A DNA stretch of 64,000 nt from Alteromonas sp. MMG017. GTDB taxonomy: Bacteria; Pseudomonadota; Gammaproteobacteria; Enterobacterales; Alteromonadaceae. The stretch lies in the NCBI RefSeq assembly GCF_018100795.1, contig NZ_JAGJDY010000007.1, positions 186,001-250,000 of the forward strand, written 5' to 3'. The position numbers and the translations under genes were made by a program. Each line of letters begins with the position of its first letter. The stretch's first letter is position 1. Below are positions 39,037 to 40,921 of the stretch, piece by piece. The notes under the pieces were generated by a model, which was not told where the DNA came from, did not search any database, and saw only the letters and a list, made by a program, of their open reading frames with translations.

Positions 39037-39062
39037 AAAGGAGCCTATCGGCTCCTTTTTTT
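39037..39062 (+). terminator. Terminator after the coiled-coil membrane protein
   Basis: The stem AAAGGAGCC/GGCTCCTTT with a 4-base loop is followed by four more T on the plus strand. It separates this gene from the RsbQ-like gene. Confidence 0.93.
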
Positions 39063-39194: not shown

Positions 39195-40010
39195 ATGATT
39201 TTTCAATCCAGTGCTAATCATATTATCGACAACAATAACGTAAACATTATTGGTTCAGGCACAAAAACTCTTATGCTTGCACATGGATTTGGTTGTGACC
39301 AAAACATGTGGAAGTACCTTACCCCCTATCTTGAGCAGAAATACAAAATCGTGCTGTTTGACTATGTGGGCTGCGGAAAATCTAATGTTAGTGCTTTTGA
39401 TAAATCTCGGTATGAAGAATTAGAAGGGTATGCACAAGATGTTATCGATATTTGTGAAGCGCTTGAGTTAACTGAGGTCACGTTTATTGGCCATTCAGTA
39501 AGCGGTATTATTGGTTATCTCGCTTCAGTTATCGCCCCGCAATATTTTTCAAATTTTGTGTTGGTATGCCCCTCTCCTTGTTTCCTGAATTTACCACCAG
39601 ACTATTTTGGCGGTTTCGAAAAAGAAGACTTGGAAGAGCTTATTAACTTAATGGACAAAAACTATATCGGCTGGGCGAGTTACCTTGCGCCATTAGTGAT
39701 GGGCGGAGAAAACGACCCCACTTTAGTAAAAGAACTGGAAAGCAGCTTTTGTTCTACCGACCCTAAGTATGCGAAACCTTTTGCAAAGGCCACCTTCTTT
39801 TCCGATTATAGAAATATCCTTCCTACAATTTCTTTTCCCTCTCTTATTCTGCAAAGTCGCAGCGACTCATTAGCAGCAGTCGAAGTGGGGAAATATATGC
39901 ATAAAAAAACACCTTTGTCATCGCTTGAAGTGATTGACGCTCACGGCCATTGTTTGCATATGACAAACCCCGTCACTATTGCAGAAAAAATAGCGCAGTT
40001 TGTCTCTTGA
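39195..40010 (+). CDS. rsbQ: RsbQ-type alpha/beta hydrolase
   Basis: The 271-residue protein matches Bacillus RsbQ along its length, with shared blocks HGFGCDQNMW (30-39), LFDYVGCGKS, GYAQDV, CPSPC, KNYIGWA and FCSTDP. The catalytic triad is intact: S101 in GHSVSG, D224 and H252 in HGHC, each offset by 5 from RsbQ S96/D219/H247. The plant receptors KAI2 and D14 belong to the same family. In Bacillus, RsbQ is needed to activate the PAS phosphatase RsbP. Here the next gene, overlapping its stop, encodes PAS-GGDEF instead. It probably hydrolyses or senses an unidentified small hydrophobic molecule. Confidence 0.94.
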   Translation: MIFQSSANHIIDNNNVNIIGSGTKTLMLAHGFGCDQNMWKYLTPYLEQKYKIVLFDYVGCGKSNVSAFDKSRYEELEGYAQDVIDICEALELTEVTFIGHSVSGIIGYLASVIAPQYFSNFVLVCPSPCFLNLPPDYFGGFEKEDLEELINLMDKNYIGWASYLAPLVMGGENDPTLVKELESSFCSTDPKYAKPFAKATFFSDYRNILPTISFPSLILQSRSDSLAAVEVGKYMHKKTPLSSLEVIDAHGHCLHMTNPVTIAEKIAQFVS

Positions 40011-40921
40011 ATGAGGAACTGCTCGACCTCTTTCCAAGTTTACTTTTAGTGTCGAATTTACGATCCGGAAGCATCGATTACTGCAATAAAGATGCCTTGG
40101 AATTTCTCGGCTCTTCACGAGAAGAGGTGGCGGGAAGCAACGTTTCCAGTATTATTTCGCGGGCGAGTTTAATTTTTTTTGAAAGCTATGTAAGACCGTC
40201 ATTACTCGCGACGGGTAGATTTTCAGAACTTCAAATGACGTTAGTCACTGCGCAGCAAGAACGGTTACCTGTACTGGCAAATGTTACACTGCATGGCGAA
40301 CAACTCTACTGGTCTATGCATTCAGCTAAAAGCCGCGATAAGCTTTATCAAGAGCTCATAGAAGTAAGAGACAGCTTGGAATTAAAAACCGACGAGCTCA
40401 CACTACTTTCCCGACTCGACCCGCTTACAAACTTACTTAATCGTCGTGCTGCCTCGGCGGATATTCGTAAGCTACTCGATCAGGTAAATCGAAAATTCGT
40501 TCCTGTGTCTTTCTTACTCATTGATATTGATTTCTTTAAAAACATTAACGATAACCACGGTCATGATGTAGGCGACGAGGTTATTGGATTACTATCAAAA
40601 ACATTAAAATCTGCCACGCGAAAAACTGATGTTGTTGCCCGCTGGGGCGGCGAAGAATTTCTGATAGTGCTATATAACTCAACCCAAGACAATGCCCGAC
40701 TCTATTGTAAGTATTTGCATGAAAGGATTGCAGAGTTACGTTATTCGCGAGCAGATAGAATTACGGTGAGTATTGGCGTGACGCAAATACCCATGCCGCA
40801 ACATGACACAGTTTTGCAAGTTGAAACATTAATTAAAGAAGCCGATGACGCGCTTTACCAGGCGAAAGACGACGGCCGAAATCGCACTATCTTCCACACA
40901 GACAAACACGCCAAAATCTAG
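40007..40921 (+). CDS. PAS-GGDEF diguanylate cyclase, partner of RsbQ
   Basis: The protein of about 304 residues is read from the TTG at 40007, which overlaps the RsbQ stop (TTGA). A TTG at 39950 in the same frame is an alternative with a longer overlap. An N-terminal PAS domain (about 1-105) is followed by a coiled linker (about 110-135) and a GGDEF domain with intact GGEEF in RWGGEEFLIVLY near residue 215. There is no membrane segment. It should synthesise c-di-GMP under control of the PAS domain, and the overlap with the RsbQ gene implies that RsbQ signals through that PAS, as with RsbP. Confidence 0.9.
   Translation: MNEELLDLFPSLLLVSNLRSGSIDYCNKDALEFLGSSREEVAGSNVSSIISRASLIFFESYVRPSLLATGRFSELQMTLVTAQQERLPVLANVTLHGEQLYWSMHSAKSRDKLYQELIEVRDSLELKTDELTLLSRLDPLTNLLNRRAASADIRKLLDQVNRKFVPVSFLLIDIDFFKNINDNHGHDVGDEVIGLLSKTLKSATRKTDVVARWGGEEFLIVLYNSTQDNARLYCKYLHERIAELRYSRADRITVSIGVTQIPMPQHDTVLQVETLIKEADDALYQAKDDGRNRTIFHTDKHAKI

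Follow-up and report, generated by a model that had tools for sequence, protein, structure and literature searches.

An RsbQ-type hydrolase and an RsbP-class PAS-GGDEF protein encoded as an overlapping gene pair in Alteromonas sp. MMG017

The window, that is, the whole stretch of 64,000 nucleotides analysed here (bases 186001-250000 of its contig, C66, in a 4.73 Mb genome of 84 contigs), carries a gene for an RsbQ-type alpha/beta hydrolase that overlaps a gene for a PAS-GGDEF protein. The two products very probably work together as a two-part cytoplasmic sensor of the RsbQ/RsbP-PAS class whose output is a diguanylate cyclase; the hydrolase probably switches this putative c-di-GMP-synthesizing enzyme. 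This reading draws on the observed pairing of the two genes, the class of the PAS domain, intact catalytic motifs, the way RsbQ and PAS diverge together, and a rule of whole heptads in the linker. The locus adds a good member to a kind of gene pair already published in 2011 and does not represent a new type of system.

The gene pair and its domains

The hydrolase gene occupies 39195..40010 of the forward strand as an intact open reading frame (271 aa, ATG start), and the PAS-GGDEF gene follows on the same strand at 40007..40921 (304 aa, with a possible TTG start at 40007). The TTG of the cyclase gene lies over the TGA stop of rsbQ in a four-base TTGA overlap (40007..40010, forward strand), and the overlapping pair reported in an earlier note on this DNA is confirmed by both frames. 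Taking the first possible start codon, a -4 overlap is found in 41 and any overlap in 87 of the 120 loci with an adjacent PAS among L009-L137. Upstream of the pair, a GGAGCC-TATC-GGCTCC hairpin followed by a T-run (39040..39062, forward strand), recognized by eye and unlisted by the terminator scanner, is the likely terminator of the preceding gene; therefore, the two genes are probably transcribed as a separate unit. Promoter and terminator scans gave scores within the range of shuffled sequences, and the next long gene 3' of the pair is carried by the other strand. The genome holds 59 GGDEF matches, so the PAS-GGDEF protein is one cyclase among many.

Compared with solved structures, the hydrolase was nearest to 3qvm (Olei00960, E 4e-104) and 1wom (Bacillus RsbQ, E 6e-92), followed by plant KAI2/D14 structures from E 1e-63, and an NCBIfam search gave no equivalog near its cut-off. 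Among hydrolases the protein stands closest to RsbQ/Olei00960, with an intact Ser-Asp-His triad. All three residues named in the earlier note were verified, namely Ser101 in GHSVS (codon 39495..39497), Asp224 (39864..39866) and His252 in HGHCLH (39948..39950), all on the forward strand. Across the 209 RsbQs that were scored (the window and 208 loci, L136 being not scorable), the Ser and Asp are present in every protein and the His in 206. The His is replaced by Asn in L016, whose DNA is identical to that of L141 (Glaciecola sp. KUL10), and by Gln in L125; the partners of these proteins still read as PAS-GGEEF. Each is a single-codon case that decay or sequencing error might explain, and it weighs lightly as evidence.

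The PAS domain spans residues 1-110 (40007..40336, forward strand). Since the Pfam models PAS_9 (E 6.8e-6) and PAS (E 9e-4) both fell below Pfam's cut-offs, we utilized a class-specific profile to settle its identity. This independent profile was built from 18 RsbQ-linked PAS domains of named genomes outside the window's family, as judged by record title, and in a search of the whole genome its best hit was the window PAS (E 1.1e-18), with the runner-up at 3e-6. RsbP numbering was transferred via L169, an Oceanobacillus relative, rather than via B. subtilis RsbP itself; on this numbering F57, Y61 and P64 correspond to F55, Y59 and P62, and the equivalents of L13, F55, Y59, P62, E72 and P86 are identical. 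PMC3183031 lists nine class residues (C10, L13, L48, Q53, F55, C56, Y59, E72 and P86), five of which (L13, F55, Y59, E72 and P86) are identical in the window PAS, while C10 is replaced by Ser, L48 by Ile, Q53 by Leu and C56 by Phe. In Bacillus, changing RsbP by F55A or Y59A gives a null mutant whose interaction with RsbQ is disrupted (PMC3183031). Judged by profile and residue alignment, this N-terminal domain, encoded directly beside rsbQ, belongs to the RsbP-PAS class; the class profile and the kept F55/Y59 equivalents bear out the likeness to the RsbP PAS implied by the shared sensor logic of the earlier note. Among solved structures, phmmer with the PAS region gave chance-level matches (best E 0.06), and the class profile weakly recovered general PAS proteins (best E 3e-5) and no RsbP-PAS structure. 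A simple motif search found no DIT motif after the PAS in any of 189 aligned proteins, the window included.

The C-terminal part of the partner, which together with the stop codon covers 40418..40921 of the forward strand, matches Pfam GGDEF at E 4e-42. Its sequence motifs include the GG(D/E)EF signature, here GGEEF at residue 214, the metal-site aspartate, and an I-site RxxD (RKTD, residue 205) that ends five residues earlier. The PAS-GGDEF protein would be an active cyclase, and c-di-GMP would be its regulated output.

Recurrence and outputs of the RsbQ-PAS pairing

RsbQ matches at E 1e-20 or better occur in 100 of 395 genomes of the window's family (107 matches, two with an internal stop), and matches at E 1e-30 in 3 of 369 genomes of the class sample and 20 of 398 of the phylum sample, the window's own genome being counted in each. 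The distribution in the genus is patchy, with RsbQ in 12 genomes, a count that takes in the window's own and another of its species, and 20 genomes listed without it. In Alteromonas sp. LOR and IB21 the RsbQ is 63-64% identical to that of the window, and there are further same-genus loci whose partner proteins begin like the window's partner. A scan of named genomes found at least 578 relatives, from which the best 80 were taken; the phyla among the matches listed were Proteobacteria, Bacillota, Actinomycetota, Bacteroidota, Cyanobacteria, Acidobacteria, Chloroflexi and others.

We pooled 209 RsbQ loci (L009-L217), including the own locus, duplicates and these best 80 of at least 578; counting the window, 201 of 210 loci are distinct. 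An RsbP-like PAS lies directly downstream of RsbQ in 194 of the 209 (187 distinct RsbQ sequences), indicating that the pairing is not a matter of chance, and the recurrence across genomes of several phyla agrees with what the earlier note anticipated. This search covered all frames with a seed profile of 12 sequences whose members are among the 194; the independent test of PAS class is the 18-sequence profile run against the window's genome. The remaining loci comprise one fusion, six with the PAS elsewhere in the locus, six without it in the stretch examined (in three of these the flank is short, about 1.5 kb) and two that end too soon.

The output domains of the 195 adjacent or fused partners were called by profiles made here, with which Pfam agreed in all three cases checked. 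Overall, most partners carry a GGDEF, histidine kinase or PPM phosphatase output, again with the best 80 of at least 578 included. The family sample (102 partners) gave 71 GGDEF, two GGDEF+EAL, 23 kinase and six without a match, and the class and phylum samples together (19) gave 14 kinase, three GGDEF, one GGDEF+EAL and one without a match (L058, in which a kinase domain of another kind can be recognized by eye). The named genomes (74 partners, from the best 80 of at least 578) gave 28 GGDEF, three GGDEF+EAL, 21 PPM, 17 kinase and five without a match.

Several arrangements differ in detail. Among the loci with the PAS elsewhere, L129, L131 and L136 have the order RsbQ, transporter, PAS-kinase, with a transporter-like gene standing between RsbQ and the PAS-histidine kinase; a similar gene lies beside RsbQ in L135, these transporters being identified by eye. 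Such a neighbour is a possible clue to uptake or export of a ligand. The other three, L152, L159 and L166 (Marinobacter or Vreelandella), carry a PAS-GGDEF-EAL gene upstream of RsbQ (EAL by eye), a gene order reversed relative to the RsbQ-first pairs. At L132, L133, L179 and L183 and at L093, L095, L097 and L100, RsbQ is followed by a PAS-only protein of about 116-163 aa or by a protein of 256-281 aa, and no output domain in these partners matched the profiles made here; the effector may be encoded elsewhere. Within the window's own genus, RsbQs at 63% identity and up (L010, L011, L015, L018 and L022) pair with GGDEF partners and those at 42-49% (L108 and L112-L116) with kinase partners, as if the two types had been acquired separately.

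A natural fusion was found in G002, a single-contig genome, where RsbQ, PAS and GGDEF share one open frame of 585 residues (frame length, the start codon not being fixed) at L061:586-2340, in the region G002:C1:3924095-3924877. The PAS of this protein also falls below Pfam's cut-off. The corresponding alignment crosses a single stop in the same-genus genomes G179 and G211 and in a paralogue within G002; the fused frame lacks that stop, and among the 13 genomes of the genus searched, only G002 has the unbroken frame. A term search of the main text of PMC3183031 found no mention of an RsbQ-PAS-GGDEF fusion.

Linked divergence and heptad linkers

For 89 non-redundant RsbQ/PAS-GGDEF pairs we compared protein distances as correlation coefficients, quoted without significance figures. 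RsbQ and PAS distances correlate at r 0.81, or 0.69 given GGDEF, and RsbQ and GGDEF distances at 0.58, or -0.03 given PAS. The divergence of RsbQ follows the PAS, not the cyclase domain. At the level of single positions, the RsbQ residues that covary with PAS include 125, 130, 146, 167, 221, 226, 254 and 257, which by sequence placement only lie near D224/H252 or in the cap segment. Within the PAS protein, the strongest positions are W102, Y114 and F9, followed by L113 and D111, with the F-alpha residues E59, Y61 and R63 lower; the linker start, residues 111-114, is thus among the covarying positions. The mean of the top 25 values is 0.346, compared with 0.268 for the RsbQ-GGDEF control and 0.280 for within-clade shuffles (sd 0.007, 20 shuffles), and the highest single value is 0.435 versus 0.424 in the RsbQ-GGDEF control. 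Since the excess is modest and the top value close to that of the control, phylogeny still contributes; of the 89 pairs, 69 belong to one clade. The covariation signal between RsbQ and PAS is therefore modest to weak and partly phylogenetic.

PAS and GGDEF are joined by a predicted helical linker of 28 residues, or four heptads (residues 110-137; 40334..40417, forward strand), in which six of eight a/d positions are hydrophobic in the best of seven frames, a heptad pattern read from the sequence alone. Measured between R110 and the DxLT motif, the linker was 21, 28, 49 or 56 residues long in every one of 98 direct PAS-GGDEF proteins; 'direct' means 56 residues or fewer, a split from longer linkers made after the lengths had been seen. 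The set includes related and duplicate rows, amounts to 81 distinct linker sequences and skips three proteins (L020, L024 and L173), of which L020 has a linker of 28 residues when counted by eye. Among longer PAS-GGDEF stretches, four of seven proteins have multiples of seven, and the Bacillota cyclase members (alignment A3) have a linker 28 residues longer than the 28 of the window. Whole-heptad lengths fit a coiled-coil lever. Because the linkers of most phytochrome cyclases also differ by whole heptads, according to PMC9587094, the rule is expected of coiled-coil levers and is not peculiar to the RsbQ-PAS module.

Known relatives, rival readings and significance

An RsbQ-PAS module with diguanylate cyclase output was described by Nadezhdin, Brody and Price in 2011 (PMC3183031), for example in Psychromonas ingrahamii (A1SVT3), and their set includes an RsbQ-PAS pair of Alteromonas macleodii (B4RX87), added by hand because its PAS lay outside the cut-off. 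The window shares with this published cyclase module the adjacent genes, the upstream RsbQ, the N-terminal RsbP-like PAS and the GGDEF output, and may also share its predicted coiled-coil. The earlier note was right in its architecture, but the idea was not new, having been published in that paper. As that note proposes, the ligand may be butenolide-like and the pair may influence biofilm or motility. In the literature naming RsbQ with diguanylate cyclase or GGDEF, we found no description of this exact locus and no experiment on a cyclase-type member. With the pairing published in 2011, the locus adds little as a discovery; the fusion, the heptad rule and the two His-less paired RsbQs are small additions to that work.

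Like B. subtilis RsbQ-RsbP, the window has a 1wom-like hydrolase, the same PAS class and the same gene order; unlike that system, its output is GGDEF instead of a PPM phosphatase, and no SigB pathway is implied. With plant KAI2/D14 it shares the alpha/beta hydrolase family and the Ser-Asp-His triad, so that RsbQ has a sequence kinship to butenolide receptors. The plant proteins are not known to have a PAS partner and signal through other proteins. A 2024 study in Current Biology reported that Bacillus RsbQ perceives butenolides; it is also said to describe how RsbQ hydrolyses synthetic strigolactone analogues and how biofilm is affected. RsbQ has a buried hydrophobic pocket and matches KAI2 closely (KAI2 structure, PMC3548789; D14 model, PMC3436726). 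The cue answered by RsbQ-PAS is called mysterious in PMC3183031. A comparable case is the Moorella RsbT with an RsbU N-terminal domain on GGDEF, likewise a stress-pathway partner-protein module placed on a cyclase, although the partner proteins differ (PMC12143880); the same paper restates the RsbQ-PAS module and gives an AlphaFold2 model of RsbP-RsbQ.

As we picture the sensor, a small, probably hydrophobic ligand or substrate would enter the buried pocket of RsbQ, which would touch the PAS on its F-alpha side and also the beginning of the helical linker. From there the signal would travel along a dimeric coiled-coil of whole heptads and align the paired GGDEF domains productively or take them out of that register, setting the c-di-GMP output, on which the I-site would give feedback. 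Contact through F-alpha and a need for the triad would hold by analogy with the Bacillus work. Against this picture weigh the modest covariation, in which F-alpha positions rank low, the four substituted class residues, and the six of 209 loci that lack an RsbP-like PAS in the stretch examined.

It would be very surprising if RsbQ were simply a metabolic esterase with a neighbouring cyclase that answers another cue. The six of 209 loci without an RsbP-like PAS in the stretch examined, three of them with about 1.5 kb of flank, speak for this, but the pairing recurs across phyla, a natural fusion exists, RsbQ co-diverges with PAS rather than GGDEF, and the contact residues are conserved. We rejected this reading because of the recurrence.

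Two sub-models of the preferred bipartite sensor concern what RsbQ does. It may be a true hydrolase that passes its product to the PAS pocket, the PAS being the sensor (Model 1 of PMC3183031). The near-universal triad and the null phenotype of triad mutants in Bacillus (PMC3183031) favour this, and the paired RsbQs of L016/L141 and L125, which retain PAS-GGEEF partners without the catalytic His, tell weakly against it; we hold it a serious candidate, at somewhat under even odds. Alternatively, RsbQ may sense by ligand occupancy like D14/KAI2 and contact the PAS, hydrolysis only resetting it (Model 2 of PMC3183031). The kinship to KAI2/D14 and the covariation of RsbQ positions near D224/H252 or in the cap with PAS and linker positions point this way, and the His-less paired RsbQs keep such a receptor in play, if thinly; on the other side, the covariation is weak and partly phylogenetic, and conservation of the triad almost everywhere suggests that the chemistry matters. 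We give receptor action nearly an even chance. The narrower proposal that RsbQ docks on F-alpha and the first linker heptad, moves the coiled-coil into another register and controls c-di-GMP independently of turnover seems to us rather unlikely.

The fusion and the His-less members are cases in which the occupancy-receptor reading is directly testable, and the fusion offers one polypeptide for structure and assay. An RsbQ wired to a cyclase provides a simple c-di-GMP readout for finding the ligand of a protein whose plant relatives are hormone receptors. If RsbQ were indeed an occupancy receptor acting without turnover, the molecule that it binds physiologically would represent a new cytoplasmic signal acting on c-di-GMP.
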